From Bacteroidota bacterium (GTDB taxonomy: Bacteria; Bacteroidota; Bacteroidia; NS11-12g; UBA9320), in assembly GCA_013359235.1 (NCBI GenBank), contig JABWCE010000021.1, positions 1-39,428 on the forward strand: DNA of 39,428 nt. The letters are read 5' to 3'. Positions 11,280 through 39,428 of this stretch are shown piece after piece. The position numbers were made by a program, and so were the translations under genes. The first letter of the stretch is position 1. Every line of letters starts with the position of its first letter. The notes beneath the pieces are model-generated. The model was not told the origin of the DNA, did no database searches, and saw only the letters and a program-made list of their open reading frames with translations.

Positions 11280-11287
11280 CAAAGATA
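11280..11287 (-). promoter_or_regulatory. Candidate -7 box of the iscSUA operon
   Basis: On the minus strand this reads TATCTTTG, an exact match to TAnnTTTG, 33 nt ahead of the iscS start codon. I do not see a convincing TTTG -33 element at the usual distance, so the call rests on the -7 box and its position. Confidence 0.45.
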
Positions 11288-11353
11288 ACATACTTTTATA
11301 AAAAATTGTTTTAAGTTTTTTTTAAGATTGAATTATTAATGTAATGTTGCATT

Positions 11354-11755: not shown

Positions 11756-11759
11756 AAAA

Positions 11760-13421: not shown

Positions 13422-13490
13422 AGTTTACTTACAAACCTAACTTAAATTTTTATATAATGATTTAATGCAATAGAAATATATATTCACAAT

Positions 13491-14231: not shown

Positions 14232-14236
14232 CAGTA

Positions 14237-15247: not shown

Positions 15248-15316
15248 TTTAATTGGTAATGCGTAATTTTGTAACGCGAAAATAATACATAAATTTTAAA
15301 ATCATTTTTTTAGCAT

Positions 15317-16357: not shown

Positions 16358-16358
16358 A

Positions 16359-23932: not shown

Positions 23933-25072
23933 ATGATAAATAAGCAATATCAAAATTTTATAAAATTTTCATTAAATGACCATGACGGACAAATGAGGAT
24001 ATTTGCCGAATTTGAATACAACAAAGATTTGAACCATATAATAAAACAAATACCCGGAGCAAAATGGAGTTTCACTAAAAAACAATGGCACTTAAATTTG
24101 AATAAGCAGGTGATAACTCTACTAAAAGTAAAATTTGGTACCCTTGCCACACTCGACTTCAGTTTGCTTGAAAAGCAATGGAAGGAATTGGATGCAAAAC
24201 AAAAAGAAGAAAAATTTTCGGATATAGAAACAGAAACTGTAAAAGCCATTGATTATTTTAAATTATGGATGGAGCAGAAACGTTATAGTCCGCAAACGGT
24301 GAAAAACTATATTGGGCAACTTGTTCAGTTTTTGAGTTATTATCAACCAAAGAGTTTTAAAGAGCTTACGGCAGAAGATGTAGAGCGATATAACCATGAA
24401 GTAATAATAAAGAACGGATTTTCGGTTTCGTTTCAGCGTGGTCTTGTAGGTGCTGTAAAGTTATTTTACATGCAGTGCCAAAAAACACGCATGGATATTA
24501 CAAAGCTGCAACGCCCGTTCAAAGAAAATACCTTGCCCGAAGTGCTGAGTAAAGAAGAGGTGCAAAAAATAATAGGGGCAACAAATAACCTTAAACATAA
24601 ATCGCTTTTAAGTTTAACGTATGCCTGCGGACTTCGAAGAGGCGAGGTTTTGAATTTGAAACTTAAAAACCTCGACAGCCAGCGTAAACTTATACACATA
24701 ACACAGGCAAAGGGTAAAAAGGACAGGTATGTTACTTTCAGTTTGAAACTCCGTAATCTTTTAGTAGAGTATTACAAGCTATACAAGCCAAAAGTTTATT
24801 TGTTTGAAGGGCAGTATGGACAGCAATATGGGGCACGAAGTTTTGAACTGGTGCTGATGCATTGCTTAGAAAAAACAGGGATAAAGAAAAAAGTGACATT
24901 ACATACTTTGCGACATAGTTTTGCCACTCATTTACTTGAGTCTGGAACAGATATACGCTATATACAGGAACTTTTAGGACATAACAGCCCCAAAACAACC
25001 ATGATTTATACACATGTGAGCAGTAAAAAAATTAGCGAAATAAACAGCCCTTTTGATGATTTGGAACTTTAA
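23933..25072 (+). CDS. Tyrosine recombinase with an extra N-terminal domain, candidate cassette integrase
   Basis: The catalytic set of tyrosine recombinases is complete: Arg235 (CGLRRGEV), a lysine in the QAKGKKDRYVTF hairpin, His324 and Arg327 (HTLRHSFATHLL), His350 (LLGHNS) and the nucleophile Tyr359 (TMIYTHV). The core-binding domain spans about 100-190. Residues 1-80 form an extra domain (FNLD..GAKWSFTKKQWHLNL pattern) that resembles the HARP-type annealing domain; this is a weak match. The ending TTMIYTHV...INSPFDDLEL resembles integron integrases, but the IntI-specific insertion between boxes 1 and 2 is not evident. The 379-residue gene is codirectional with the cassettes and 88 nt from the first cassette boundary, so it is the obvious candidate for their integrase. 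Confidence 0.88.
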   Translation: MINKQYQNFIKFSLNDHDGQMRIFAEFEYNKDLNHIIKQIPGAKWSFTKKQWHLNLNKQVITLLKVKFGTLATLDFSLLEKQWKELDAKQKEEKFSDIETETVKAIDYFKLWMEQKRYSPQTVKNYIGQLVQFLSYYQPKSFKELTAEDVERYNHEVIIKNGFSVSFQRGLVGAVKLFYMQCQKTRMDITKLQRPFKENTLPEVLSKEEVQKIIGATNNLKHKSLLSLTYACGLRRGEVLNLKLKNLDSQRKLIHITQAKGKKDRYVTFSLKLRNLLVEYYKLYKPKVYLFEGQYGQQYGARSFELVLMHCLEKTGIKKKVTLHTLRHSFATHLLESGTDIRYIQELLGHNSPKTTMIYTHVSSKKISEINSPFDDLEL

Positions 25073-25174
25073 TATTGTAAAAAATAAAACGAAACACTAC
25101 CTTCGCATTAGCATATCTTTTTGGAAGGATAAGCGAAACAGCGTATCGTGTATAAACAAGTTATGCACAAGCGG
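25073..25174 (+). other. Candidate attI-like site next to the recombinase
   Basis: GTTATGCACAAGCGG at 25160-25174 has the same layout as the right-hand core of the element at 30633-30647 (GTTACAGGCAAGCGT). Upstream of it TTCGC (25112-25116) can pair with GCGAA (25133-25137), but there is no long palindrome and no copy of the apical sequence found in the two attC-like elements. This asymmetry is what would be expected of a primary insertion site beside an integrase gene. A decayed attC-like element is the alternative. Confidence 0.5.
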
Positions 25175-25266
25175 AGAAAAGACAACGACACTGCAAATTG
25201 ACAATGAAAATAGAATATTAAACTTGGAATGAAAAAAGACTATAAAAGACAAATACCCCATCGCAC

Positions 25267-25282
25267 AAAAATTTTGAAATTC
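25267..25282 (+). repeat. Left arm of cassette 1 long-range inverted repeat
   Basis: AAAAATTTTGAAATTC is the perfect reverse complement of GAATTTCAAAATTTTT at 30406-30421, 5.1 kb away. It lies just outside the left hairpin. The sequence is AT-rich, so a chance match is possible for one pair alone, but cassette 2 has a matching arrangement at the corresponding places. Confidence 0.6.
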
Positions 25283-25296
25283 TTCTGCCTACCCAC

Positions 25297-25363
25297 AAAT
25301 GGCACATTTGCTTTTGCCCCGACACACAAGGCTAACCCTTCTGCAAAATCAAAAGAGCCATTT
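25297..25363 (+). repeat. ACA/AGA hairpin, cassette 1 left copy
   Basis: The left strand is AAATGGC-ACA-TTTGCTTTTGC and the right strand GCAAAATCAAA-AGA-GCCATTT. It forms a 7-bp outer and an 11-bp inner stem (one mismatch) around a symmetric ACA/AGA internal loop. The 25-nt apical loop contains CCGACACACAAG and ACCCTTC. The outer and inner stems differ from the other copies by compensating changes while the internal loop is constant. It ends directly at the -33 region of the res1 promoter. Confidence 0.85.
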
Positions 25364-25394
25364 CTTGCTGACCCGCTTTTTTTTAGTACTTTTG
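25364..25394 (+). promoter_or_regulatory. Promoter of the res1-mod1 operon
   Basis: TTG at 25365-25367 (within TCTTGC) lies about 20 nt ahead of TACTTTTG at 25387-25394, an exact TAnnTTTG box. The res1 start codon is 24 nt downstream of the box. The same TACTTTTG octamer serves the operon of cassette 2. The cassette therefore brings its own promoter and does not need one from the recombinase side. Confidence 0.6.
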
Positions 25395-25418
25395 GACTTT
25401 TAATTAATTGAATTTGAA

Positions 25419-28319
25419 ATGCTTCAGACGATTATAGAATATCATAAAAATCAATGGCTTAACTCTGATGAATGTACAATCAGACCAATCATTGATTACA
25501 TCAAAAATAAAGGTCAGTTACGGGAAGCCCAATACGAAGCCATTGAAACATATTTGTTTCTCAAAATAAAAGGACAAAACAAGCCACTTTGGGAACTATT
25601 TTCAGAAGGTTTCTTTTCAAATGGTGACGATTTATCAAAATTAAATATTAATCAGACAGCAAGAGAAATATTTGATAAAAATAAAGCAGCGAAATCATTA
25701 CTCGACTTTTCCAGATTTAAAGTTAAAAATGGTAATGGTACTGAAACATTGTTACCTGACTTAGAAAAATATATCATCAATAATTCTGACAAGATAGATT
25801 ATGAAAACATAATCAAACGAATTTTTTACGGGATAGATTATTCAGACTACCTCTTCAGTTTGCCAATGGGTGCAGGAAAAACCTTTTTGATGGCATCAAT
25901 AATTTATTTGGATTTATATTTTGCATTAAACGAACCCGATAATAAAAATTTCGCACATAACTTTATTATACTTGTTCCATCAGGTTTAAAATCTTCGATT
26001 GTACCAAGCATTAAAACAATTGAAAAATTTGACCCAACTTGGATAATACCCGAACCATCAGCAAGTAAACTTAAAAACCTTATAAATTTTGAAATATTAG
26101 ACCAACCAAAAACAGGGAAGAAAAGCAATAAAGCAAGAAACCCCAATGCTCAAAAGGTTAATAATTATCAGCCATTTGAAGAATTAATGGGTTTAGTTAT
26201 GGTTGTAAATGCTGAAAAAGTAATACTTGACCGACTTGAATTAACTGCACAAGGAGAATTATTTGAAAAAACGGAAGACGAAAAAGACAAACAAGCAAAT
26301 GAGTTAAGAAACATAATAAGTAAAATCCCAAATCTTCAAATACATATTGATGAAGTGCATCACGCAGCAACCGATGATATTAAACTTAGAAAAGTTGTTA
26401 CAAAATGGAATACTAACGGAAATATAAATAGTGTTTTGGGTTACTCTGGGACACCCTATTTAAGCAAAAAAGATGAAGTTGGTATTGCTGAAAATATTAA
26501 AATTAAATTTTCACAAATAACAAATACAGTTTTCTATTATCCACTAACTACTGCTATTAAGCAATTTTTAAAAAAACCAAGAGTTGAGCAAGTAAGCGGT
26601 TTAACTTCTGTTCAAATAATTAAGAAAGGTGTTGATGATTTTTTCAAAAACTACAACTCAACTATTTACGAAAACAGAACTATCGCTAAAATCGCCATTT
26701 ATTGCGGTAGCATTGAGAATCTTGAAGAAAAGGTTTTTCCGTTCTTAACAGACGAAATGAAAATTTCACCTGAATTAATTCTGAAATATCATAAAGGGAA
26801 TAAGAAATACAAACTACCAAAAGAAAACGAAACAGAATTTGCTTCTTTAGACACTCCTCTTTCAAAGAAAAAAATCATTCTGCTTGTTCAGGTTGGTAAA
26901 GAAGGTTGGGATTGCAAAAGTTTGACAGGAGTAATACTTTCCCAAAAAGGCGATTGCCCGACAAATATGGTTTTACAAACCAGTTGTCGTTGTTTACGAC
27001 AGGTTGACCGAGATAAACAGGAAACAGCAATAATATGGTTGAATGAAGATAACGCAAAATCATTAGACAAACAACTCAAAGAAGAACAACACACAAGCAT
27101 TAAAGAATTAAATAATCTTGGCAAACAAGACAAAACAGAAATGATTGAGAGGTTTTCAAGATTAGATTTTCTTAAACTTCCTAAAATAGATTTTTATCAA
27201 TTAAAAGTTGAATACAACACCATTACTATTGAAGAAAACCCTGAACCCGAAAACAAAATTAAAAGCATTGAACTCAAAGACAGTTTTAATAAAGCCGTAA
27301 TCGTACAGCGTGGATTAAGTCAGAAAGATCAAAAGACTAAAGATTTTGTTAGCAAAGTAAAAGGCGAACCTGCAAACTTTTATAATTGGTTGTTTGAAAT
27401 TGCTAAAGGTAGTTTCAATACTATTTTGTTAAAAGACTTAATGAAATTTGATACAGAACTTGAAAAGATATTCCAAACAATCACTGTTGAAGAAAAAAAG
27501 AAAAGATTTTATAATGAATTATATAGCCATAATAAAATTAAATCTGAAATTCGTTTGGCTTTTCATTGTAAACGTAATTTTGAAACAAAATCTGAAATTA
27601 TCCCCGATACTGCTCAAATGCTTATAGTAGAGAATTTGCAATCAGTACCAAAAAATGATAAACTATATCCAAGTGTTGAAGAAACAAAGAAAATAATTGA
27701 TACTGATGCAAAAAATACTTCTCTTGAAATAGACGAAGCCGAAATCAGAAAAGCATTTGATATAATAAAGCAAAACCTTGAACAGCAAGGAATGGGTAAT
27801 TTTGTTCCTGACTTTAACCAATACAAATCCCAATATGACTTTTCGCCTGCTGTTAAATCAAAATATCAAACTTTTCATTATCTGCCTTACGACTTTTGGC
27901 AAAGTGGGTTTGAATTAAAATTTTTGAAAGAGGTTGTTACACTTAAAGAGTTTAATGAACGTAAACTTGAAATTTATTATAACGGAGAAAAGCACATTAC
28001 CGATTTTAGAATTTTATGCTTTGCTAAAAAAGGAAATAATTACCAAAGAGTTGGTTTATATACACCCGATTTCTTGATTATTAAACGCAAGGATGAAGCA
28101 ATAGCCAATGTTTTAATTGTAGAAACTAAGGGAAGTGGATATGCTGAACAGACTACTTTTAAACTTCGTAAGAAATTTATGGAAACCGAGTTTTTGCAAA
28201 TGAATAACGATAAATTCGGATACAAGAAATTTGAATACCTGTTTTTACAGGACGATGCAAAGTTTGATGATAACCTTGCGAAACTAAATGAAACCATTGT
28301 TGAATTTTTTAAAGACTAA
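25419..28319 (+). CDS. Type III-like restriction endonuclease subunit (Res1)
   Basis: The 966-residue protein is a superfamily 2 helicase with a C-terminal nuclease. The P-loop MGAGKT has Lys154, the Walker B is the DEVHH box at 311-315, motif III reads GYSGTP near 341, and motif VI QTSCRCLRQVDR lies near 520. A PD-(D/E)xK nuclease core follows at Asp884 (TPDFLII) and Glu902-Thr-Lys904. This is the plan of type III Res subunits, which translocate along DNA and cut after binding Mod. It is paralogous to Res2 over its whole length. The res gene comes before mod, the reverse of the usual type III order, and 5 nt separate them. Confidence 0.9.
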   Translation: MLQTIIEYHKNQWLNSDECTIRPIIDYIKNKGQLREAQYEAIETYLFLKIKGQNKPLWELFSEGFFSNGDDLSKLNINQTAREIFDKNKAAKSLLDFSRFKVKNGNGTETLLPDLEKYIINNSDKIDYENIIKRIFYGIDYSDYLFSLPMGAGKTFLMASIIYLDLYFALNEPDNKNFAHNFIILVPSGLKSSIVPSIKTIEKFDPTWIIPEPSASKLKNLINFEILDQPKTGKKSNKARNPNAQKVNNYQPFEELMGLVMVVNAEKVILDRLELTAQGELFEKTEDEKDKQANELRNIISKIPNLQIHIDEVHHAATDDIKLRKVVTKWNTNGNINSVLGYSGTPYLSKKDEVGIAENIKIKFSQITNTVFYYPLTTAIKQFLKKPRVEQVSGLTSVQIIKKGVDDFFKNYNSTIYENRTIAKIAIYCGSIENLEEKVFPFLTDEMKISPELILKYHKGNKKYKLPKENETEFASLDTPLSKKKIILLVQVGKEGWDCKSLTGVILSQKGDCPTNMVLQTSCRCLRQVDRDKQETAIIWLNEDNAKSLDKQLKEEQHTSIKELNNLGKQDKTEMIERFSRLDFLKLPKIDFYQLKVEYNTITIEENPEPENKIKSIELKDSFNKAVIVQRGLSQKDQKTKDFVSKVKGEPANFYNWLFEIAKGSFNTILLKDLMKFDTELEKIFQTITVEEKKKRFYNELYSHNKIKSEIRLAFHCKRNFETKSEIIPDTAQMLIVENLQSVPKNDKLYPSVEETKKIIDTDAKNTSLEIDEAEIRKAFDIIKQNLEQQGMGNFVPDFNQYKSQYDFSPAVKSKYQTFHYLPYDFWQSGFELKFLKEVVTLKEFNERKLEIYYNGEKHITDFRILCFAKKGNNYQRVGLYTPDFLIIKRKDEAIANVLIVETKGSGYAEQTTFKLRKKFMETEFLQMNNDKFGYKKFEYLFLQDDAKFDDNLAKLNETIVEFFKD

Positions 28320-28324
28320 AATAT

Positions 28325-30316
28325 ATGCCAGTAAAATACATCTCACATATTCCAAACACCGTTGAAGGTCAAGCAATTTTAGACAACTTTGTTCGCACAC
28401 GCAGAGTACTTCGATACAGAGACAACGACAAAGTATTTGACCGTGTTAAAAGAGGTTTACCACTTTACGAAGTTGAAAAAATTGAAAGTATAGGCAACAA
28501 TCCTAATAATCTTGTTTTACGTGGCGAGTGTCTTTCTGCCTGTGCATATCTGAAAGATAAAGGTATTAAGGTTGATTTGGTTTATATTGACCCACCTTTC
28601 GCAAGTGGTGCTGATTATGCTAAAAAAGTGTACATAAGACGTAACCCTAAATTGGCTGAAAAAATTGCCAAAGCCGAAGAGCAATTAGATATAGAAGAAC
28701 TCCGTGCATTTGAAGAAAAAATGTATGGCGACATTTGGAATAAAGAAGATTATTTGAATTGGATGTACGAAAACCTAATGGCAATTAAAAGCATAATGAG
28801 TGACACCGCAAGTATTTATGTTCATTTGGATTGGCACATCGGGCATTATGTGAAAATATTAATGGATGAGGTTTTCGGGGAAGATAATTTTATTAATGAA
28901 ATAATTTGGTCATATCGTAGTGGTGGTGCTTCTAAAAAAGGTTCAATAGCCCGTAAACACGATGTAATATTCTTTTATAAAAAAAGTATTGATGATTTCA
29001 CAATAAATACCATTTATGAAAGACAATATTTAGAAAAATCATTTATGGATTCAAAACAAGATGAAGATGGCAGATTTTATGTAGATACTATTCTAACTGA
29101 TACTATAAGTGGTGTAATTAATAGAGTAATGCCAAATAAAACAATTAAAGAATATAATACTAGACCTGTTTTGAATTTATCTGTAGAAAGACTGGATTAT
29201 GCAACACAAAAGCCAGAAGGTCTATTAGAATTATTAATTGAAATAGCAACCAAAGATGATATGCTTATTGCCGACTTTTTTGGTGGTAGCGGTGTAACAG
29301 CAAAAGTAGCCAATGATTTGAAAAGGAATTTTATTCACGTTGATGTTGGTGTAAATAGCATTCAAACAGTAAGAGACAGATTAAAGGAAGTCAACGCTGA
29401 ATTCGATATCTTAGATGTAAAAGACGGTGTATCTCTTTTCCGTAATCCAATACAAACGATGGATAAATTAAAATCTTTGATTACAGGCTTACGCAACGAA
29501 GATAGTTTAGATAATTTTTGGGAAGGTGCAATTAACGATAGCAAACTTGGATTAGTTCCTGTTTACGTTCCAAACCTGTTAGACCATAGCACAAAGGTTT
29601 TAGATATTCCTTTAATGAACCGCATAATCAACGAAGCAATACCCGATTTACCCGACAATACCAAACAAGTTATTGTTTACTATATTGACATTGATGATGA
29701 AAAGGAATTGCTTAAATTTATTGATGAATACAATAATACAGATGTAAAAATTCTGCTTCGTGACTTAAAAGAAATTTTAGATGAAGTTGTAATTAACGAT
29801 ATTATTGAATATGAAGTAAAAGAAAACGAAATTGAGTTTATTAAATTCATCAGCGACCGTTTAATGCAAAAAATTGATGAATACAATCAAAAGAAAGGAT
29901 TGAACGGTAAAAAGGCAGAACAACTTACAATTAGTGAAAATGGTGATGAAGAAAATGATGAAAATGGAGATACAGAAAACGGCAACAATGGAGATGATGA
30001 ACCCGAAGAAAAAACTAAAAAGAAAAAATTCATTCCTATTGAAATAAGCGATAACGGACTGGAATTAATTGAAATGATTTCGCTCGATTGTACAAATATT
30101 GAAGGAATATGGAAAAGTGATTATGAAATAAAAATTGATAAAAATGGTTATTTGGCAATCAATGGTAAGAAATCAAAAGACTTTTGGAATGGGAAAATAA
30201 CATTTGAAAAGAAACCTTTAAGAATGAAAGTTAGAAACATTGCAGGTGACGAAACGATATTAAATTTTTCTGAAAGCGAAGACAAGAAAGAAGTAAAACC
30301 TAAAACAAAGAAATAG
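28325..30316 (+). CDS. Type III-like DNA methyltransferase (Mod1)
   Basis: The 663-residue protein has beta-class amino-methyltransferase motif order. Motif IV DPPF is at Asp89-Phe92, a target-recognition domain lies at about 196-288, and motif I FFGGSG is at 318-323. It should methylate adenine N6 (or cytosine N4) and provide the DNA specificity for Res1. The N-terminal 195 residues are nearly the same as in Mod2, but the TRD is unrelated and shorter, so the target sequence should differ. A D/E/N-rich stretch (about residues 540-565) interrupts the region before the C-terminal domain and is missing from Mod2. The stop is 8 nt from the start of the right flanking hairpin. Confidence 0.9.
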   Translation: MPVKYISHIPNTVEGQAILDNFVRTRRVLRYRDNDKVFDRVKRGLPLYEVEKIESIGNNPNNLVLRGECLSACAYLKDKGIKVDLVYIDPPFASGADYAKKVYIRRNPKLAEKIAKAEEQLDIEELRAFEEKMYGDIWNKEDYLNWMYENLMAIKSIMSDTASIYVHLDWHIGHYVKILMDEVFGEDNFINEIIWSYRSGGASKKGSIARKHDVIFFYKKSIDDFTINTIYERQYLEKSFMDSKQDEDGRFYVDTILTDTISGVINRVMPNKTIKEYNTRPVLNLSVERLDYATQKPEGLLELLIEIATKDDMLIADFFGGSGVTAKVANDLKRNFIHVDVGVNSIQTVRDRLKEVNAEFDILDVKDGVSLFRNPIQTMDKLKSLITGLRNEDSLDNFWEGAINDSKLGLVPVYVPNLLDHSTKVLDIPLMNRIINEAIPDLPDNTKQVIVYYIDIDDEKELLKFIDEYNNTDVKILLRDLKEILDEVVINDIIEYEVKENEIEFIKFISDRLMQKIDEYNQKKGLNGKKAEQLTISENGDEENDENGDTENGNNGDDEPEEKTKKKKFIPIEISDNGLELIEMISLDCTNIEGIWKSDYEIKIDKNGYLAINGKKSKDFWNGKITFEKKPLRMKVRNIAGDETILNFSESEDKKEVKPKTKK

Positions 30317-30324
30317 CCAACGCA

Positions 30325-30390
30325 TTTGCAAGCACATTTAAAAACCGCACCAGCCAACGCTAAACCAAAGTTTTTAAAAGAGCTTGCAAA
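30325..30390 (+). repeat. ACA/AGA hairpin, cassette 1 right copy
   Basis: The left strand is TTTGCAAGC-ACA-TTTAAAAAC and the right strand GTTTTTAAA-AGA-GCTTGCAAA, with perfect 9-bp outer and 9-bp inner stems. The internal loop is again ACA/AGA. The 24-nt apical loop (CGCACCAGCC...AACCAAA) is of the right-end subtype shared with the copy at 38991-39049. It starts 8 nt after the mod1 stop codon. It is not followed by a T-run, so it is a poor terminator. Confidence 0.85.
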
Positions 30391-30405
30391 GCCAGCCCAA
30401 GCGTA

Positions 30406-30421
30406 GAATTTCAAAATTTTT
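30406..30421 (-). repeat. Right arm of cassette 1 long-range inverted repeat
   Basis: GAATTTCAAAATTTTT pairs without mismatch with 25267-25282. It lies just outside the right hairpin, mirroring the left arm. Confidence 0.6.
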
Positions 30422-30498
30422 CTCCACGCTAAAAGAAAAAGAATTGACAAGTTTAATATGAAAGTGCAATTTGACAGGAACCTACGGACAGACAAGAA

Positions 30499-30647
30499 CC
30501 GCCAGTGCATAACAGGCGGTATATTTTATTGCCGAGATAGTGGGTATTTCAACGTTTCTGCATCTAATAAACTTTCGTATAATTTGACAGGACAATGCTT
30601 CGAAATCGGCAACAAAAACATACCGCCAAACCGTTACAGGCAAGCGT
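30499..30647 (+). repeat. attC-like element 1 between the cassettes
   Basis: From outside in, the element has the inverse core CCGCCAGTGCATAAC (30499-30513) and a left arm of 21 nt starting GGCGGTAT and ending GCCGA (30515-30535). An apical part of about 70 nt follows, then a right arm starting TCGGC and ending TACCGCC (30606-30627) and the core GTTACAGGCAAGCGT (30633-30647). The arms are complementary apart from one extra base and two or three mismatches. The apical block 30547-30601 matches 39247-39301 at 42 of 55 positions without a gap. Length, palindrome, TAAC/GTTA borders and cassette-specific cores all follow the integron attC plan. Confidence 0.75.
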
Positions 30648-30838
30648 AAAAAGACAGTGCAACCCTGACAGTGACGACTGAAAAACGGAGACTTTGCAAC
30701 CTGACAATTAAGCGGACTTTTAACTGGACAGTTCTTTAACAACTTGACACAGACCAACGAGCCGACACTCAAAGCCGACCCGAATGTTTTTAAAATTTTT
30801 GCCCACCCGCATTTTTAATTTTTTCATACCCACCGCAC
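30648..30838. other. Cassette 2 left-end non-coding region
   Basis: No coding sequence is seen. The stretch is rich in GACA/TGACA words and ends in the two AT-rich repeat arms at 30786-30800 and 30811-30824. A reading frame that spans the attC-like element and this region has no coding character. Confidence 0.5.
30786..30824 (+). repeat. Left arms of cassette 2 long-range inverted repeat
   Basis: GTTTTTAAAATTTTT (30786-30800) and ATTTTTAATTTTTT (30811-30824) are perfect reverse complements of 39096-39110 and 39069-39082 respectively. The two parts are in mirrored order, and the spacers are 10 and 13 nt. The bipartite match across 8.3 kb makes chance less likely than for a single AT-rich word. 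Confidence 0.7.
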
Positions 30839-30903
30839 ATTTAGCACATTTGGTTTTGCCCGACACACAAGCCCGACCCTTCGCAAAACCAAAAGAGCTA
30901 AAT
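30839..30903 (+). repeat. ACA/AGA hairpin, cassette 2 left copy
   Basis: The left strand is ATTTAGC-ACA-TTTGGTTTTGC and the right strand GCAAAACCAAA-AGA-GCTAAAT, with perfect 7-bp and 11-bp stems. The 23-nt apical loop holds CCGACACACAAG and ACCCTTC, as in the left copy of cassette 1. The outer stem differs from that copy (AAATGGC/GCCATTT) by paired substitutions. Confidence 0.88.
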
Positions 30904-30942
30904 TTTTTCCAACGCACGGACGGACAATCGGAAAATAATACT

Positions 30943-30966
30943 TACTTTTGACCAGTTTTGTCAAAA
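30943..30966 (+). promoter_or_regulatory. Promoter and overlapping operator of the XRE-res2-mod2-sir2-herA operon
   Basis: TACTTTTG (30943-30950) is an exact TAnnTTTG -7 box. It overlaps the first half of a perfect inverted repeat TTTTGAC-CAGTTTT-GTCAAAA (30946-30952 and 30960-30966). The repeat lies between the promoter and the XRE gene start (30980), where a dimeric repressor encoded by that gene would block transcription. No good -33 element is seen, which fits a weak or regulated promoter. Confidence 0.6.
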
Positions 30967-30979
30967 CACATATTGTCTT

Positions 30980-31273
30980 ATGAATAGCTTCGGTGAAATA
31001 ATCAGAAAAGCAAGAGAAGAAAAAGGATTGTTCCTTCGACAGGTAGCTGCCGAAATGGAAATTGACCAAGCTATTATCAGCAAGTTTGAACGTGGCGACA
31101 GGAAGCCGACCAAAGAACAGGTTTTGAAGTTTGCCAAATTCTACAAACTGGACAAGGAAGAACTTTTGGTTGCGTGGCTGAGTGACAAAGTTGCTTATGA
31201 CTTACAAGACGAAAATTTGGCTGACAAAGTGCTGAAAGCAGCAGAAGAGAAAATTAAATACAAGAAAAAGTAA
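30980..31273 (+). CDS. XRE-family transcriptional regulator
   Basis: The 97-residue protein has a helix-turn-helix at about residues 5-61 (FGEIIRKAREEKGLFLRQVAAEMEID, IISKFERGDRKPT), typical of phage Cro/C1 repressors and restriction-modification C proteins. The C-terminal part is a charged helix. Its stop codon shares one base with the res2 start (TAATG), so translation is probably coupled. The candidate operator overlaps its own promoter. It likely sets the level or timing of the whole operon; cassette 1 has no such gene. Confidence 0.85.
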   Translation: MNSFGEIIRKAREEKGLFLRQVAAEMEIDQAIISKFERGDRKPTKEQVLKFAKFYKLDKEELLVAWLSDKVAYDLQDENLADKVLKAAEEKIKYKKK

Positions 31274-34164
31274 TGCTTCATTATATCATACAACAAAAGA
31301 AAAACGAATGGTTGCAGTCTGACGACTGCACCATTCGTGATTTAGTTAAATATATCCGTGACAAAGGACATTTGCGTGATACCCAAATTGAAGCAATTGA
31401 AACTTATTTGTTCCTGAAAATTCAAGGACAAAACAAACCGCTTTGGCAACTTTTTTCAGAGGGCTTTTTCACCAACGGAACTGACCTTGCAAAACTCGAC
31501 ATCAACCAAATTGCAAGAGAGTATTTAACTCAAAATAAAAATGCTTTTGCACTCTTTGACTTTGCAAGACAGAAAAACGGTAACGGAACATATATCCCTG
31601 AACTGGAAAAACTAATCAAAGCAAATCCCGCTTCGTTAGATTATGACACCATCATTAAAAGCATTTTTTACAATGTAAACTATGCCGACTATTTAATGAG
31701 CTTGCCGATGGGAGCAGGTAAAACCTTCCTGATGGCTGCTTTCATTTATCTTGACTTGTATTTTGCCGACAACGAACCCGAAAACAAGGCATTTGCACAT
31801 AATTTTTTAGTGCTTATTCCCTCGGGCTTGAAATCTTCCATTGTTCCGAGTTTAAAAACGATTGAAAACTTTGACCCTTCTTGGGTATTACCCGAACCAT
31901 CAGCAAGCAACCTGAAAAAATTGTTGAAGTTTGAAGTTTTGGACGAGCAGAAAACAGCAAAGAAAAGTAACAAGGCAAGAAACCCGAATGCTCAAAAAGT
32001 AAATGCTTGTTTGCCTAATCCATTCGGGCAAGTTTTTGTAGTGAACGCTGAAAAAGTGATTTTGGAAAGTTTCAAATTCAATGCACAAACAGAACTTGAA
32101 TTAGACGAAGAAGAAAAAGACACAACAAACGACCTGAAACGATTATTCGGTCAAATCCCGAATTTATCCATCCTCATAGATGAAGTTCACCACGCAGCAA
32201 CAGACGACATCAAATTAAGGCAAGCAGTTAATTACTGGCACAGCAAAGGAAATATCACAACCGTTTTAGGTTTTTCGGGAACGCCTTATTTGCAAAGTGC
32301 CGAAAAAATCAAAGCAGGCGATTATGAGTTTAAATTCTCTCAAATCACCAATACGGTTTATTATTATCCGCTTGTAACAGCAATTAGGAAATTTCTAAAA
32401 ACACCAACAGTAAAAATCGGGCAAAACCTTGACCGTTTCCAAATTATTAAACAAGGCATTGAGGATTTCGACAACCAATACAAAAACAAGGTTTACGAAA
32501 ACGGAACTATTGCAAAAGTCGCTATCTATTGCAGCAATATTGAAGTATTAGAGGAAGAAGTTTATCCGTTCCTTACAGGTGAATTGAAAATAAATCCCAA
32601 TGAAATTTTACGCTTTCACAAAGGAAACAAAGCACATCCACAACCCGAAGGAAGCGAGTTAGAGTTTCGTTCATTGGATTTACCAATTTCAAAAAAGCGT
32701 TACATTCTTTTAGTTCAGGTTGGAAAAGAAGGTTGGGACTGCCCAAGTTTAACAGGCGTAATACTTTCTCAAAAAGGCGACAGCCCTCAAAATATGGTCT
32801 TACAGACTTCTTGCAGGTGTTTACGCCAAGTGGACAAAGGCAAAGAAGAAACCGCTTTGATTTGGCTGAACAAAGACAATGCTGATACGCTGAACAAACA
32901 ACTGAAACAGGAGCAAAACACAAGCATTGAAGAACTGAACAGCACTAAGCGAACTGGAAAACCTGAGACCATTGGCAGACATTCCCGAATGGACTTTTTG
33001 CAATTGCCGAAAGTGGATTTCTATCAAATGAAAGTAACCTATCAGGCAATTGATGAAGAAGAAACACCGAATACAAAAGCTAAACTAAAAGCTTTGCTTA
33101 AAAACATTGACAATTTCAAAGCATCTGCCCTGATAACAACCAGCGACATTGCCAACATTGACACAGGCGAAATTGATGTTATCAATGAAACTGGAATTGC
33201 ATTTGCCAATTTCAATCAATGGCTTTTTGAAATTTCAAGAGAAAGTTTCGGATTGATTTCGGAAGCATTTTTGCACCAATATGATAGCGAACTGAACGAA
33301 ATATTTGAAACCGTTTCTTATGAAAAGGAGGGTCAGCGTTTTTTCAATGAATTATATGACCTACACTCCATTCAATCAAAAATTCGTTTGGCTTTCAGCA
33401 TCAAACGGGATTTGCAAACCGATACAGAAGTAATTCCTAAGCAAGCCGAATTATTGATTGCAGAACGATTGACAGAGGTAGAGAAGAATGCAAAACTTTA
33501 CCCAAATGAAGCAGACACAACTAAAATTTTGGAACTGGATAAATCCAATGCAACAGTAAGCATTGATACTGCCGAGATTGAAAAAGCATATCAATTGATG
33601 AAAGAAACATTGGAAGCCCAGGGAATGGGCAATTTTGTTCCGACTTATGAAAGCTTCAAAGCAGATAAAGATTACTCACTGCCAGTAAAATCTAAAAATC
33701 ATTCTTTTCACTATTTACCATACAACTTTGGCGGAAGCGGAAGCAGTGGTTTTGAAATTGAAACACTTCAAAAAGCCTTGCAATTAGCCGATTTCAAAAA
33801 CAAGGAATTGGAGATTTACTATAACGGTGAACGTGGTTTGACTGAGTTTGTAATTAACTGTTTTGCTAAAGAAGGCAGGTATTGGAAAAATGTTGGAAAA
33901 TACACTACCGACTTTTTGATTGTGAAGCGGACGGCAAAGGAAAAAATTCACAAAGCCCTGCTAATTGAAACCAAAGGTTCTGTTTATGCAGCCGACAAAG
34001 TATTTCAGAAAAAGAAAAGTTATGTGGAGACCGAGTTTCTGAAACTCAATAAAGAAAAATTCGGCTATCAGCGATTTGATTTCCTCTATTTGGAGGACAG
34101 CAAAGACATTGCAACCAACATCACCAAATTGAATAACAAGATTAACCAGTTTTTTAACGATTAA
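31273..34164 (+). CDS. Type III-like restriction endonuclease subunit (Res2)
   Basis: The 963-residue paralog of Res1 keeps every catalytic element: P-loop lysine Lys150 in PMGAGKT, DEVHH box at Asp303-His307, GFSGTPY, QTSCRCLRQVDKG, and the nuclease Asp880 (TDFLIV) with Glu899-Thr-Lys901. The N-terminal 100 residues agree with Res1 at about 60% of positions by eye, and the helicase motifs are the same. Its nucleotide sequence has drifted widely from res1, so this is not a recent duplication. It is the first enzyme gene after the regulator, and mod2 follows after 3 nt. Confidence 0.9.
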   Translation: MLHYIIQQKKNEWLQSDDCTIRDLVKYIRDKGHLRDTQIEAIETYLFLKIQGQNKPLWQLFSEGFFTNGTDLAKLDINQIAREYLTQNKNAFALFDFARQKNGNGTYIPELEKLIKANPASLDYDTIIKSIFYNVNYADYLMSLPMGAGKTFLMAAFIYLDLYFADNEPENKAFAHNFLVLIPSGLKSSIVPSLKTIENFDPSWVLPEPSASNLKKLLKFEVLDEQKTAKKSNKARNPNAQKVNACLPNPFGQVFVVNAEKVILESFKFNAQTELELDEEEKDTTNDLKRLFGQIPNLSILIDEVHHAATDDIKLRQAVNYWHSKGNITTVLGFSGTPYLQSAEKIKAGDYEFKFSQITNTVYYYPLVTAIRKFLKTPTVKIGQNLDRFQIIKQGIEDFDNQYKNKVYENGTIAKVAIYCSNIEVLEEEVYPFLTGELKINPNEILRFHKGNKAHPQPEGSELEFRSLDLPISKKRYILLVQVGKEGWDCPSLTGVILSQKGDSPQNMVLQTSCRCLRQVDKGKEETALIWLNKDNADTLNKQLKQEQNTSIEELNSTKRTGKPETIGRHSRMDFLQLPKVDFYQMKVTYQAIDEEETPNTKAKLKALLKNIDNFKASALITTSDIANIDTGEIDVINETGIAFANFNQWLFEISRESFGLISEAFLHQYDSELNEIFETVSYEKEGQRFFNELYDLHSIQSKIRLAFSIKRDLQTDTEVIPKQAELLIAERLTEVEKNAKLYPNEADTTKILELDKSNATVSIDTAEIEKAYQLMKETLEAQGMGNFVPTYESFKADKDYSLPVKSKNHSFHYLPYNFGGSGSSGFEIETLQKALQLADFKNKELEIYYNGERGLTEFVINCFAKEGRYWKNVGKYTTDFLIVKRTAKEKIHKALLIETKGSVYAADKVFQKKKSYVETEFLKLNKEKFGYQRFDFLYLEDSKDIATNITKLNNKINQFFND

Positions 34165-34167
34165 GAT

Positions 34168-36180
34168 ATGCCAGTAAAATACATTCCATATTATCCAAGC
34201 ACGGTTGAAGGACAAGCCATTTTGGACAACATCATCCGAACACAACGTGTATTGCGATACCGTGAAAATGATAAAGTGTATGACCGAATTAAGAGAGGTA
34301 TGCCCTACTATGAAGTTGAACCCATTGAAACAGTCGGCAAGCCTTCTGAAAATTTGGTAATTCGTGGTGAGTGTGTTTCTGCTTGTGCCTATCTGAAAGA
34401 GCAAGGCATAAAAGTGGACTTGGTTTACATTGACCCACCCTTTGCCAGTGGTGCAGATTATGCCAAAAAAGTTTACCTAAGAAGAAACCCAAAATTGGCA
34501 GAAAAAGTTGCTGCTATTGAGAAAGAAATGGATATAGATGAACTCAAAGCTTTTGAGGAAAAAATGTATGGTGATATATGGAACAAAGAAGATTATCTCA
34601 ATTGGCTTTATGAAAACTTAATTGCGATTAAAAGTATTTTGAGTGATACAGGAAGTATTTATCTGCATTTAGATTGGCATATTTCACATTATGCAAAAGT
34701 TTTGTTGGATGAAGTGTTTGGAGAGGACAACTTTGTGAATGAGATTATTTGGAGAAGAAAGCTTGCAACTTCTTATGCTTCTAAGCAGTTTGGAATTACA
34801 AATGACACAATATTTTGGTATTGCAATGGTGAGGAGTATGTTTTTAATGCGGAATATTCGCTTGATGATGAAAACACTCAAAATTATCTTGCAGAAAGAT
34901 TTGTTTATGATGATGGTGATGGACGGAAATATATGAAATCACCACTTGTTAATTCTCTTTACCGTCAAAATCTTAAATATGTTTTTATGGGTGTTGAACC
35001 GCCTGAAAATGGTTGGCTTTACAAGGAGGAAAGAATGCAAGAACTATACGACAATAACGAATTAGTTATGCCTGAAAATGGGAAAGGTCGTATTTATCGA
35101 AAAATATATGCCGATAGCTATCAAGGTCAACTTATTCAAAATTTGTGGTTAGACATTCCAATTGTTAATCCAATGGCAAAGGAACGGTTAGATTATGCAA
35201 CTCAAAAACCCGAAGCATTACTAAAAAGAATAATTAGTGCAAGTAGTAATGAAGATATGCTGATTGCTGATTTTTTCGGAGGAAGTGGAGTTACTGCAAA
35301 AACCGCCAATGACTTAAATCGAAAATTCATTCACATTGACATTGGAATTAACAGCATCCAAACGGTAAGAGATAGATTAATTGAAGCGAAAGCTGATTTT
35401 CAAATATTAGAAATTAAAGACGGTGTTAGTCTATTCCGCAATCCACAACAAACAATGGATAAGTTGGCAACCATCATCCCAGGTTTGCAAAGGAATGTTT
35501 CAGGTATTAGTAATTTTTGGTTTGGTGCGGTAACAGAAGCAAAGTTGGGAACAGTTCCAGTATATGTGCCTAACTTGCTCAACACACAAGAAAAGGTTTT
35601 AGACATTCCGACCATTAACACTATTATCAATCAGGAATTACAAAACTTGGAAGTCAATGCCAAAAAAGTAATTGTCTATTACATTGACATTGACGACCAA
35701 AAGGCAGTGGAAAAATTCATTAAAGAAAACAACGCCACCGAAATTGAAGTAGAGCTCAAAGACCTGAAAAACCTGCTTCACGAAATTGTAATTGAGGATA
35801 TTGTAGAATTTAATACTACAAAAACCAAAGACGGATACGAAACGGAAATTACTAAATTCATCAGCGACAGGCTTATTCAAAAAATCAATGAGTTCAACCA
35901 AAAAGGCAACTTGCAATCCTTAACCAAAGGAAAAAAGTTTGAACCTATCAGCATCAGCGAAGAAGGTTTGGAACTGATTGAACTCATTTCTTTGGATTGT
36001 GAAAATTCTGAAGGTCAATGGCACAGCACCACCGAAATTAAAATTGACAAACTTGGTTATGTGATAAAGGACGGAACCAAAACAAAAGAATTTTGGGACG
36101 GTAAAATTACAAGCGATAAGAAACCGAAAAGAATAAAAATCAGGAATATCAGCGGTGATGAAACGATAAAAGGATTTTAG
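34168..36180 (+). CDS. Type III-like DNA methyltransferase (Mod2)
   Basis: The 670-residue protein has motif IV DPPF at Asp89-Phe92, and a longer target-recognition domain at about 196-340. Motif I FFGGSG is at 369-374. The N-terminus (MPVKYIPYYPSTVEGQAILDN) and the C-terminal domain (ISISEEGLELIELISLDCENSEG) align with Mod1, but nothing in the TRD does. The target sequence should therefore differ from that of Mod1, so the two systems can coexist. The acidic insert of Mod1 is replaced by a short linker. The sir2 gene starts 4 nt later. Confidence 0.9.
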   Translation: MPVKYIPYYPSTVEGQAILDNIIRTQRVLRYRENDKVYDRIKRGMPYYEVEPIETVGKPSENLVIRGECVSACAYLKEQGIKVDLVYIDPPFASGADYAKKVYLRRNPKLAEKVAAIEKEMDIDELKAFEEKMYGDIWNKEDYLNWLYENLIAIKSILSDTGSIYLHLDWHISHYAKVLLDEVFGEDNFVNEIIWRRKLATSYASKQFGITNDTIFWYCNGEEYVFNAEYSLDDENTQNYLAERFVYDDGDGRKYMKSPLVNSLYRQNLKYVFMGVEPPENGWLYKEERMQELYDNNELVMPENGKGRIYRKIYADSYQGQLIQNLWLDIPIVNPMAKERLDYATQKPEALLKRIISASSNEDMLIADFFGGSGVTAKTANDLNRKFIHIDIGINSIQTVRDRLIEAKADFQILEIKDGVSLFRNPQQTMDKLATIIPGLQRNVSGISNFWFGAVTEAKLGTVPVYVPNLLNTQEKVLDIPTINTIINQELQNLEVNAKKVIVYYIDIDDQKAVEKFIKENNATEIEVELKDLKNLLHEIVIEDIVEFNTTKTKDGYETEITKFISDRLIQKINEFNQKGNLQSLTKGKKFEPISISEEGLELIELISLDCENSEGQWHSTTEIKIDKLGYVIKDGTKTKEFWDGKITSDKKPKRIKIRNISGDETIKGF

Positions 36181-36184
36181 TAAA

Positions 36185-37213
36185 ATGGATTTTGACACAC
36201 TTTTAAAACATTTACAGGAGTGGACTAACAAAGTTCCATTGCTAATTCTTGGCAGTGGTGCATCAGTTCCATTTGGTTTGCCATCCATGTGGGCGCTTGG
36301 CGAACATTTAAAAAAATCAATTTCCTTTTCCGACAAAGACGACCAAGAACAGTTTGAAGCGTTTATTGTCCAACTTGACAAGCTCAAAGATTTAGAATTA
36401 GCACTACATGAATTTCATATTCGACCGAAAGTATTATCGGAAATTATAGCAAAAACGTGGGAATTAGTAAACAAGCACGACCATGAAGCGTATGACTTAT
36501 TTGTAAATAACAAAGTGGATTTTCCATTAGCCGAACTTACAAAGTATTTACTCTATCCTACCGACAACAAACTTTCAATAATAACAACAAATTACGATAG
36601 GATTGCCGAATATGCAGCGAGTGTAGCAGGTGGGTTTATCTGCAATGGCTTCGCTCAAAATTATTTAGGACATTTTACAAGCCAAATCCACCAAAGCAAT
36701 TTCAAAGCGGTAAAAGGTTTTTCAGGTCAGATAAATGTTTGGAAAGTTCACGGTTCATTAGATTGGTTTAAGACACAACAAGAACAAGACTTACACCTTC
36801 CGTTACGTCATAAAATCCCAACTGATTTAAAGCCATCAATTGTAACGCCTGGTCTTACAAAATACTTTGAAACGCAATTAGAACCATTCAGAACAATCTT
36901 AACACAAGCTGACCGAGAAATAGAAAATGCTACTGGTTATTTGTGTATTGGATATGGTTTTAATGACATTCACGTTCAGCCAAAGCTTATAACACAAATT
37001 AAAAATCATAAGCCAATTATTGTCATAGCAAAGGAAATTACACCAAGAACCAAGCAGGCAATTATTGACAATAAAAGCAAGGCATATATTTTAATAGAAG
37101 AAGCAAATACCAACGATACTCGGATTTACTCATCATTATTCACAAAACCTGAAATTATTCCGAATGTGAGTTACTGGACATTATCAGAGTATCTTAAACT
37201 AATAAAACCGTAA
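36185..37213 (+). CDS. SIR2-family NADase, partner of HerA
   Basis: The 342-residue protein has the nucleotide-binding GSGAS (residues 23-27), the catalytic Asn136 in TTNYDR and the catalytic His189 in WKVHGSLDW. GYGFNDIHVQP near 258 is also seen in defence SIR2 proteins. No zinc-ribbon cysteines of deacetylase sirtuins are present, so NAD+ hydrolysis is the likely reaction. Next to herA this forms the SIR2-HerA (Nezha) pair, which depletes NAD+ on phage infection. It lies in one operon with res2-mod2, so its trigger may depend on the restriction system; this is inference. Confidence 0.88.
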   Translation: MDFDTLLKHLQEWTNKVPLLILGSGASVPFGLPSMWALGEHLKKSISFSDKDDQEQFEAFIVQLDKLKDLELALHEFHIRPKVLSEIIAKTWELVNKHDHEAYDLFVNNKVDFPLAELTKYLLYPTDNKLSIITTNYDRIAEYAASVAGGFICNGFAQNYLGHFTSQIHQSNFKAVKGFSGQINVWKVHGSLDWFKTQQEQDLHLPLRHKIPTDLKPSIVTPGLTKYFETQLEPFRTILTQADREIENATGYLCIGYGFNDIHVQPKLITQIKNHKPIIVIAKEITPRTKQAIIDNKSKAYILIEEANTNDTRIYSSLFTKPEIIPNVSYWTLSEYLKLIKP

Positions 37214-37217
37214 AATA

Positions 37218-38972
37218 ATGGCAGCAATATTTAAGTTTGAAGAAACATCTTCCATTGGAACCGTTTTCAGTGTTGATACAGCGACTTTAATCGTGAAGGT
37301 TGACGAAATAGACAAACTTCGTAAACTTCAAGTCAATCATTTGGTAGCCATTAAAAGCTCGAAAGCAGGTCAGCATTTAATTGGAATAATAAACCGCATT
37401 ACCCGAAAAGCATCGGACGAAGAACAGCCCGTTGGTGATGACTTGGGGCTAAGTAATTTTTTGTTTACAGAAAACATCTTGAAAGTTAATTTGATTGGAA
37501 CTTTGCTTGACAAGCACGGAGAGAAGGAAAATGTTTTTAAAAGAACTCTTGACACTGTTCCTGAAATAGAAGCACCCTGTTTCCCGATTGATGGTGAGAA
37601 CATCACCAAGTTCATGCAAACAATTTCAACAAAAGAGAACTACAAAATTCCTTTATCTATAGGCAAATACTCAATAGATGAAAAGGCAGAAGCATTTTTG
37701 GATGGTGACAAATTATTTCAACGGCACGCTGTAATTGTTGGTAGCACAGGTTCGGGTAAATCATGGTGCGTGGCAAAACTCATTGAGCAAATTGCACAAC
37801 TTCCAATGGCAAACTGTATTCTTTTTGATATACACGGTGAATATAGCGGGAAGGACTTTAAAGCTGACGGTATTCAACATTTACGTGTCGCAAATCCTTC
37901 TGACTTAGGAAAAAAAGGAAGTCTTACCAATGATGTATTAATGCTTCCATATTGGTTATTGACTTATGAAGAAATGTTGGCAATGCTTCTTGATAGAAGT
38001 GACAGCAATGCTCCAAATCAGGCAATGCTCTTTTCTAAAACTGTTTTCAATGAAAAGTTAAATCACCTTACAGAAATAAAAGACACCACCTTCAAAGACA
38101 GTATAACCATAGATAGCCCAATCCCTTACAAGATTGAGAATGTTTTGAAAGAACTAAGAAATCTTGATGAACAAATGGTGGAAGGAGCTAAAGCAGGAAC
38201 AGAAAAACAAGGTCCATATTATGGTAAGTTAACAAGATTTGTTCAGCGTTTAGAGGCAAAAAGCCAAGACAAAAGATTGGGATTTCTTTTCCAAATCTCC
38301 GAAGATGAACTTCAATTAAATTGGATGAACGAACTTTGTTCCAGACTAATGCAGGGGTCAAATCTTAATGCGAAAAAATCGGGGATAAAAATAATTGACT
38401 TCTCAGAAGTCCCTTCTGATGTTCTGCCATTAATTATTGGTTTGGTTGCACGAATTGTTTTCTCTGTTCAACAATGGACAGCTAAAGATAAACAGCATCC
38501 AATTTGTTTGCTATGTGATGAGGCACACTTGTATATTCCTGAAAGAACAAATCAAGACACAGCTTCTGAACTTGGACTAAAGAGTTTTGAAAGAATTGCA
38601 AAGGAAGGTAGAAAATACGGTGTGAGCCTTATGGTGATTAGCCAGCGCCCTGCCGAAGTGAACCGAACAGTTTTGAGCCAATGCAACAATTTCATTTCAT
38701 TGAGACTTTCCAATGCAGAAGACCAAGCAGTTATTAAACGGCTACTTCCTGACAATTTAAATGGACTTACTGAAGTTCTGCCAATACTTGATATTGGAGA
38801 AGCCCTAATAGTAGGTGACGCATCACTACTCCCAACTCGTGTAATTGTAGATGAACCAAAAATAAAGCCTGAAAGTGCGACAATAAAATTCTGGAAAGAA
38901 TGGAGTAATGAAAAGGCGGTGCAAGACATTGAAACAGCAGTAAATGGATTACGAAAACAATCAAAATCATAA
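37218..38972 (+). CDS. herA: HerA-type hexameric ATPase
   Basis: The 584-residue FtsK-HerA ATPase has an N-terminal HAS-barrel-like region (IGTVFSVDTATLIVKVDEI), a P-loop GSTGSGKS with Lys181, and Walker B CLLCDEAHLYIP with Asp434-Glu435. A sensor/arginine region VSLMVISQRPAEVNRTVLSQCNN follows. HerA forms hexamers that bind SIR2 and couple DNA sensing or translocation to NADase activity. It is the last gene of the operon, 4 nt after sir2. The stop codon is 18 nt before the right-hand hairpin. Confidence 0.9.
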   Translation: MAAIFKFEETSSIGTVFSVDTATLIVKVDEIDKLRKLQVNHLVAIKSSKAGQHLIGIINRITRKASDEEQPVGDDLGLSNFLFTENILKVNLIGTLLDKHGEKENVFKRTLDTVPEIEAPCFPIDGENITKFMQTISTKENYKIPLSIGKYSIDEKAEAFLDGDKLFQRHAVIVGSTGSGKSWCVAKLIEQIAQLPMANCILFDIHGEYSGKDFKADGIQHLRVANPSDLGKKGSLTNDVLMLPYWLLTYEEMLAMLLDRSDSNAPNQAMLFSKTVFNEKLNHLTEIKDTTFKDSITIDSPIPYKIENVLKELRNLDEQMVEGAKAGTEKQGPYYGKLTRFVQRLEAKSQDKRLGFLFQISEDELQLNWMNELCSRLMQGSNLNAKKSGIKIIDFSEVPSDVLPLIIGLVARIVFSVQQWTAKDKQHPICLLCDEAHLYIPERTNQDTASELGLKSFERIAKEGRKYGVSLMVISQRPAEVNRTVLSQCNNFISLRLSNAEDQAVIKRLLPDNLNGLTEVLPILDIGEALIVGDASLLPTRVIVDEPKIKPESATIKFWKEWSNEKAVQDIETAVNGLRKQSKS

Positions 38973-38990
38973 ATGCCGTCCCTTCACAGT

Positions 38991-39049
38991 CATACACATT
39001 GGCAAGCCCCGCAAGCCGACACACAAGCCAAAGCTTGCCAAAGAGTATG
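38991..39049 (+). repeat. ACA/AGA hairpin, cassette 2 right copy
   Basis: The left strand is CATAC-ACA-TTGGCAAGC and the right strand GCTTGCCAA-AGA-GTATG, with perfect 5-bp and 9-bp stems. The 25-nt apical loop (GCAAGCCGACACACAAGCC...AAA) mixes the CCGACACACAAG block of the left copies with the ending of the right copy of cassette 1. It again begins within 20 nt of the last stop codon. Confidence 0.85.
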
Positions 39050-39068
39050 CCTGTCCCACGCTGAAAAG

Positions 39069-39110
39069 AAAAAATTAAAAATTCCCTTCCCTTCTAAAAA
39101 TTTTAAAAAC
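39069..39110 (-). repeat. Right arms of cassette 2 long-range inverted repeat
   Basis: AAAAAATTAAAAAT (39069-39082) and AAAAATTTTAAAAAC (39096-39110) are the perfect reverse complements of 30811-30824 and 30786-30800. They sit just outside the right hairpin, in mirrored order. Confidence 0.7.
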
Positions 39111-39197
39111 GCCATCACACAATCCGACACAAAAACATTCAGACAGTTGGTTGCAAAACTCAATAAAGACAAGGGTTGCAAGACACGGACGACAAGA

Positions 39198-39337
39198 ACG
39201 CCAGCCTGTAACACGGGTTTGGCGGCAATGGCGGGTGACGTGGTAAATTCAACATTTGTGCATCTAATAAACTTTAGTGCTTTGGGACAGGTAAGTGCTT
39301 CTAAACCGCCACTGCGCCAAGCCCGAAACCGTCAGAC
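39198..39337 (+). repeat. attC-like element 2 at the end of cassette 2
   Basis: The inverse core ACGCCAGCCTGTAAC (39198-39212) is followed by a left arm beginning CGGGTTTGGCGG (39214-39234), an apical part of about 70 nt, a right arm ending GCGCCAAGCCCG (39306-39325) and the core GTCAGAC (39331-39337). The arms pair with few mismatches and one extra base. The arm sequences differ entirely from element 1, while the apical block and the preceding GACAAGAAC are shared, so structure, not sequence, is conserved. The final core lacks the AAGCG that follows the other two. Confidence 0.72.
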
Positions 39338-39428
39338 TGTCTAAAAACTCATCACGTTTCTTTATAAAATGTGCATTAGTTTGAGGCCGAAACATTGTGT
39401 GCTTATTTGCGATAACGTATCTTTACAT
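39338..39428. other. Sequence after the last attC-like core
   Basis: No gene or hairpin of the ACA/AGA type can be seen in the remaining 91 nt. This is either the first part of a third cassette or the far boundary of the island. Confidence 0.3.

Follow-up and report, generated by a model that had tools for sequence, protein, structure and literature searches.

Integron integrases (IntI) are defined by an additional domain near patch III (PMC9668308, PMC8138268) that is reported to be essential for integron function (PMC8138268), and surveys of integrons require this domain (PMC9668308). With IntegronFinder 2.0, a single complete Bacteroidetes integron was recorded beyond Chlorobi and Ignavibacteriae, namely in Salinibacter (PMC9024848). 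For classical gene cassettes, a self-pairing of 9 to 11 nt has been reported (PMC2727003). Here we compare with these systems a locus on a 39,428-nucleotide stretch of DNA from a Bacteroidota bacterium of the order NS11-12g (family UBA9320; assembly GCA_013359235.1, contig JABWCE010000021.1, positions 1 to 39,428 of the forward strand), hereafter called the window, in which the gene of a tyrosine recombinase is followed by two large cassettes of defense genes, each with an attC-like folded site at its end.

One described case of gene uptake in Bacteroidota comes from Riemerella anatipestifer, where the integration of aph(3')-IVb needs no homology and involves a unit of 27 bp, the gene, and 140 bp that fold like attC, by a mechanism given as unknown in a 2026 paper (PMC13148043). 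The genes lnu(H) and blaRATA also integrate in a homology-independent manner in this organism, while the fold and the lengths were reported for aph(3')-IVb (PMC13148043).

The locus in the window very probably serves as a platform for the capture of cassettes, functioning like an integron and run by the tyrosine recombinase encoded at 23933-25072, acting on folded att sites. Below, we present the pairing of cassette ends that carries this proposal together with the properties of the folded sites, the recombinase and the cassettes.

Results

Pairing of cassette ends

The original prediction for this locus held that the start core of each cassette is complementary to the end core of the same cassette, but not to that of its neighbor, because the two ends would meet in an excised circle. 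All four 15-mers do sit where it placed them (25160-25174, 30499-30513, 30633-30647 and 39198-39212), 13 of 15 bases are complementary in both cassettes, and the variable core bases fit only within the own cassette: across the hairpin of the array, cores agree just at GTTA/TAAC. The shared location of the two misfits (positions 10-11 in both cassettes) was likewise found, though it needs refinement in that only position 11 is constant while position 10 is paired in roughly half of the cassettes. We searched the whole window without a model for core pairs with GTT at the start and AAC at the end, an A facing C at position 11, and no more than one misfit in the complementarity of positions 4-9 and 12-15. 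This strict search returned exactly two pairs on the + strand, i.e., cassettes 1 and 2, and none in two shuffles; the other strand gave two matches, both A/T-rich.

The comparison over many cassettes that had been proposed as a check was made with 92 candidate cassettes from other genomes and the window, scored at nine positions with a shift of one nucleotide allowed for a one-base bulge. At least 8/9 positions were complementary in 68 of them, compared to 0.9% of random pairs and 1/54 pairs of neighbors. Mean agreement was 7.46/9 for own pairs, 3.68 in 5,000 permutations (highest 4.22) and 3.48 for neighbor pairs. Unrelated start and end cores in other genomes had been named as the outcome that would speak against the rule, and what we found is strongly the opposite. 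Positions 1-9 are paired, position 10 in about half of the cassettes, position 11 is a misfit, positions 12-15 are paired again, and nothing pairs further out. The two mismatches first seen in the window therefore belong to a conserved pattern of one variable position and one constant misfit, the latter being A at the start opposite C at the end in 61 of the 68 good cassettes (T-G on the bottom strand). Similar results came from 56 candidate cassettes of the order scored at 12 positions (mean of 7.9 for own pairs, 3.9 when cores were paired at random and 3.5 for the two cores of one hairpin) and from an independent collection of named genomes, in which 24/35 cassettes reached at least 11/13 as compared to 1.8% of random pairs.

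The features of the locus are as follows, with coordinates in the window:

23933..25072, +: tyrosine recombinase, 379 aa, proposed cassette integrase (Pfam PF00589, E 2.8e-40)
25073..25159, +: attI-like stretch of 87 bp from the recombinase stop to the first start core (similar spacing in most testable loci)
25160..25174, +: start core of cassette 1 (R'-like), GTTATGCACAAGCGG (strict core-pair search)
25160..30513, +: cassette 1, 5,354 bp, a two-gene type III-like restriction-modification module (core pairing; Pfam; PADLOC)
25419..28319, +: Res-like helicase/restriction subunit, 966 aa (ResIII, weak, below the Pfam cut-off)
28325..30316, +: Mod-like DNA methyltransferase, 663 aa (N6_N4_Mtase, E 1.3e-34)
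30499..30513, +: end core of cassette 1 (R''-like), CCGCCAGTGCATAAC (strict core-pair search)
30510..30636, +: attC-like folded site 1, TAAC...GTTA (bottom-strand fold z -3.2; covariation in relatives; covariance model 99.8 bits, site in seed)
30633..30647, +: start core of cassette 2, GTTACAGGCAAGCGT (strict core-pair search)
30633..39212, +: cassette 2, 8,580 bp, with HTH (helix-turn-helix), Res, Mod, SIR2 and HerA genes, all co-directional (core pairing; profile matches)
30980..31273, +: HTH regulator, 97 aa (HTH_3, E 1.4e-11)
31273..34164, +: Res-like subunit, 963 aa (ResIII, E 2.6e-7)
34168..36180, +: Mod-like methyltransferase, 670 aa (N6_N4_Mtase, E 1.8e-41)
36185..37213, +: SIR2-domain protein, 342 aa (PADLOC SIR2, E 1.7e-122)
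37218..38972, +: HerA helicase, 584 aa (PADLOC HerA, E 1e-245)
39198..39212, +: end core of cassette 2, ACGCCAGCCTGTAAC (strict core-pair search)
39209..39334, +: attC-like folded site 2, its 3' core altered at the start of a repeated element (covariance model 109.5 bits, site in seed; fold z -1.8)
39332..39428, +: start of a repeated, apparent insertion element (TCAGACTGTCTAAAAACTC...) that abuts the att core and inside which the contig ends (19 matching places in the own genome)

Folded sites between the cassettes

The hairpins between cassettes are about 126 bp long, and 134 bp separate the end core from the next start core in the window. Fourteen sites were aligned without structure (MAFFT) as the seed of a covariance model. 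In this seed, compensatory changes occur at 14 of 22 pairs, and 94.8% of cells are paired as compared to 73.6% after shuffling and 22-43% with slid partners. A larger alignment of 137 sites shows changes on both sides at 20/22 pairs (94.6% of cells paired, 66.5% when shuffled), but the seed is the cleaner test of covariation because the larger alignment was fitted to the model. In both sets, with shuffle and slide controls, the att sites are imperfect inverted repeats in which structure is conserved over sequence.

Of 61 circle-form sites, 55 fold better as the equivalent of the attC bottom strand than as the opposite strand (mean difference of 4.8 kcal/mol), and when the own ends are joined in silico, the resulting hairpin is more stable than the array form in all 61 of 61 cases. 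Rfam gave no match at the att sites of the window. A DNA similarity search of the own genome recovered only the second site of the window plus noise, and the covariance model found 23 sites in the same genome. Arrays that obey the pairing rule but are missed by this model are present in Saccharibacillus kuerlensis (locus 11160-12822) and Rufibacter (locus 11230-17174), with hairpins of about 83 and 54 bp, respectively.

The recombinase and its insertion point

The catalytic core of the recombinase is complete, with R235, H324, R327, H350 and Y359 invariant across 16 relatives. Its score against the integron integrase profile of NCBIfam (TIGR02249) is 190.7 bits, i.e., under the cut-off of 265. 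In a residue-level alignment, the IntI-specific insertion, which comprises about 42 residues in IntI1 and Vibrio IntI, is missing from the recombinase and from every relative measured, and the stretch from the lysine motif to HxLRH measures 64-70 residues in this family compared to 107-108 in IntI. The predicted model (mean predicted local distance difference test score 83.5) has XerA and IntI as its nearest folds and contains a confident separate domain of about 95 aa at the N-terminus (23933-24220; IPGAKWS...KKQWHL). These residues are reminiscent of a HARP-like motif. In a 56-row tree with unknown root, the five IntI rows, i.e., three usable genome loci from motif extraction and two plasmid IntI, form one clade (100/100) that is nested in a larger clade (99/99) together with some of the att-bearing recombinases. 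By its sequence, the recombinase is thus not an IntI, and the usual definition of an integron does not cover the locus because the insertion is missing and the profile score falls under the IntI cut-off. No insertion-free integron integrase is reported in the literature that we searched, outside of which lie preprints and many subscription journals.

In most cases, 70-160 bp lie between the recombinase gene and the start of the first cassette. At loci of the order with sites, the first start core mostly lies 70-106 bp past the recombinase stop (156 bp in one) and matches the first end core at 12-13/13 positions. Independently of the covariance model, 27/66 relatives have a core pair that starts no more than 250 bp after the recombinase stop, where shuffles lead to an expectation of 0.15; these 27 include Saccharibacillus kuerlensis, Paenibacillus sp. 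NFR01 and a Spirochaetota metagenome-assembled genome (MAG). Around the recombinase, nearly all sites are located downstream and on its strand. A Firmicutes MAG and Patescibacteria MAGs have core pairs on the strand opposite the recombinase, as in classical divergent integrons.

Distribution of sites and recombinases

The covariance model finds sites in 73/108 genomes within the order, with a maximum of 31 in a single genome, and in 176/395 genomes sampled across the Bacteroidota. At the level of genomes, the presence of sites goes along with that of this recombinase (odds ratio 13, p 6.5e-25), and no such association is seen for IntI (odds ratio 0.53); kinship is ignored in both values. True IntI genes are present in 108/395 of the sampled genomes, but only one of the searched IntI loci clearly has such sites in its vicinity. 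In one genome that encodes both enzymes, the sites follow the insertion-free recombinase. A search of the window's order with TIGR02249 returned nothing, though its control was silent too, and it was the repeat at the level of the phylum that revealed the true IntI genes.

Cassettes as mobile units

A cassette of 3,228 bp is common to three genomes of two families, with 92.7-97.3% identity. In windows of 40 bp, identity is 0.82-1.0 inside the cassette and 0.2-0.5 beyond its right core, while on the left side it declines through a conserved hairpin arm. The exact crossover base is not fixed by this comparison because the edges lie within the common GTTA. Judging from these alignments, cassettes move as units with their edges at the GTT cores. 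Most cassettes hold one gene, and their lengths range from 268 to 8,887 bp. Among 66 cassettes, 108 open reading frames point away from the recombinase end and only 3 in the opposite direction. Among the products encoded in cassettes are restriction-modification, BREX-like, PIN and HTH proteins.

In the window, the Res/Mod pairs at 25419-30316 and 31273-36180 are related, with about 67-78% DNA identity (about 67-70% for the Res genes), so cassettes 1 and 2 hold versions of one module. No second copy of cassette 1 was found elsewhere in the order. The repeat with TCAGACTGTCTAAAAACTC ends that follows the second site exists as ~120-bp copies resembling miniature inverted-repeat transposable elements and as longer copies, at the att core in many places. 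Its junction with the att core in the window recurs at several other att sites, and the repeat looks like an insertion element that targets them.

Sites next to resistance genes

In Riemerella, sites of this family are found on plasmids, where they lie between resistance genes. The R. anatipestifer plasmid NZ_CP072192 (locus 4830-11966) has seven consecutive sites among estT, erm(F), ere(D), blaOXA and tet(X3), with some genes opposing the direction of the array. The Myroides odoratimimus plasmid p63039 (locus 4269-7098) has sites between a GNAT gene, blaOXA, the metallo-beta-lactamase gene blaMYO-1 and aadS, and in the units of GNAT and blaMYO-1 the cores match those of the own end. On a tet(X3) plasmid of Acinetobacter indicus (locus 5052-7073) and a blaVEB-3 plasmid of Klebsiella (locus 5142-6763), a short relative of the recombinase directly precedes the resistance gene. 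Between the two lies a GTTA motif resembling a start core, and no full core pair was found on either plasmid.

Discussion

Proposed mechanism

We propose that the recombinase would recombine the attI-like site just 3' of its gene with att sites that are folded as single strands. Each att site would form the tail of one cassette and probably be used as the equivalent of the attC bottom strand. A circular intermediate would carry one complete hairpin, composed of an outer arm in which the own start (GTTA plus 11 nt) is paired with the own end and of an inner arm whose stem of 18 to 20 bp is capped by a large, variable loop. The crossover point is expected inside the GTTA core that terminates this hairpin. 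Insertion beside the recombinase would leave the 3' core of the hairpin at the head of the next cassette, and this handing-over would explain why own ends fit while those of neighbors do not. The idea that ends fit since they meet in a circle is thus supported by the pairing rule in other genomes, by the yardstick of classical arrays described below, by the greater stability of all circle forms and by the shared cassette, with excision itself as the presumed step.

Several observations weigh against this proposal. The insertion that is reported to be essential in integrons (PMC8138268) is absent here. The att-bearing recombinases do not form a single clade in the tree, and more than one recombinase lineage may therefore be involved. 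No recombinase relative above E 1e-70 was detected in 80/176 genomes with sites, in a count that scored five candidates per genome and in which arrays often break at contig ends. Finally, the strict pairing rule fails in some cassettes, partly due to a one-base bulge and partly due to missed sites or insertions.

Alternative explanations

The anatomy of the cassettes, the attI-like position, the single gene direction, the GTT core and the bottom-strand bias would also fit an ordinary integron with a divergent IntI whose attC sites have been overlooked by standard tools, and IntI indeed falls within a wider clade that also holds some of these recombinases. We consider this unlikely, given that the IntI insertion is absent along with its wider motif spacing, that the TIGR02249 score is under the cut-off and the IntI rows form a clade of their own (100/100), and that true IntI genes exist in the phylum but, except near one, have no such sites beside them at the examined loci. 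It is very unlikely that the hairpins are moved in trans by a chromosomal Xer recombinase or an unlinked IntI with the adjacent recombinase being incidental: start cores lie at a set distance after its gene even in remote relatives, among them Bacillota and a Spirochaetota MAG, the sites associate with this gene at the level of genomes, and IntI is hardly present in the sample of the window's class (and not found in the order, where the control was also silent). What speaks for movement in trans are the scattered sites in many genomes in which no adjacent recombinase was detected.

Modules of the pdif type, i.e., genes between dif-like duplex sites that are shuffled by XerC/XerD, would be in line with the similarity of the recombinase to archaeal XerA and with gene modules lying between repeats. 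However, the sites are covarying hairpins of ~126 bp and not short duplex dif-like sites, and the cassettes are in direct orientation with edges that pair together as one hairpin, which makes this explanation extremely improbable. We give hardly any credence to the hairpins being RNA features such as terminators or processing sites in 3' untranslated regions with an incidental core match. Though they are found just downstream of co-directional genes, such a role leaves unexplained their complementarity to a start core kilobases upstream, the better folding of the non-coding strand and the sharp edges of a cassette in three genomes.

Significance

If the locus is an integron-like platform as we propose, then this widespread system, seen mostly in Bacteroidota, may have gone unrecognized as a second kind of integron. 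In its broadest form, this would be a second integron platform with insertion-free, XerA-like recombinases that is common in Bacteroidota, present in Bacillota and Spirochaetota and perhaps in Patescibacteria, and that carries the clinically important resistance genes tet(X3), blaMYO-1, blaOXA, erm(F) and ere(D) on plasmids, in the midst of its sites or adjacent to them or to a remnant of the recombinase. The IntI domain may then be a later addition to an older system of folded sites because IntI nests among these recombinases in the tree. We see the chances of this broad form as evenly balanced. Surveys need IntI and attC, yet sites of this family are present in 176/395 genomes, so that such surveys may have overlooked one of the major routes by which soil, aquatic and host-associated bacteria exchange genes. 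The system also makes it testable whether the recombination of folded-site cassettes needs the IntI domain at all, and it points to a possible origin of tet(X3) given that in Acinetobacter this gene is preceded by a short relative of the recombinase.

Comparison with known systems

Classical arrays of Vibrio and class 1 integrons, which we used as a yardstick, show complementarity of own start and own end over 9-13 contiguous bases amid chance matches of 8-10 bases, but they lack the signature at position 11 and had no credible match to our covariance model (R1). The phenomenon is therefore that of integrons, while the family of sites is different. Like classical integrons with IntI, attI and attC, the system described here has its integrase gene adjoining the insertion site, mostly one-gene cassettes in one direction, folded sites and a GTT crossover core. 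It differs in a recombinase without the IntI insertion, often with an extra N-terminal domain, that points towards the array; in sites with an outer arm of ~15 nt whose position 11 holds a fixed A-C misfit, and with long hairpins in Bacteroidota; and in many large multi-gene cassettes. Sedentary integrons also hold arrays of cassettes with defense modules as seen here, though with a different recombinase and family of sites, and the "reversed" integrons of Treponema and relatives differ in that they carry true IntI genes. XerA and archaeal Xer are the closest solved relatives by sequence and fold and are insertion-free as well, but they are not known to move cassettes with folded sites.

The integration of aph(3')-IVb in Riemerella resembles the present locus in its short leader, gene and attC-like fold of ~140 bp in a member of the Bacteroidota, close to the 134 bp in the window, and differs in that neither a recombinase nor a core rule was identified there (PMC13148043). 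The Riemerella transformation data fit an integron-like recombination, for which our locus would offer both an enzyme and a site rule.

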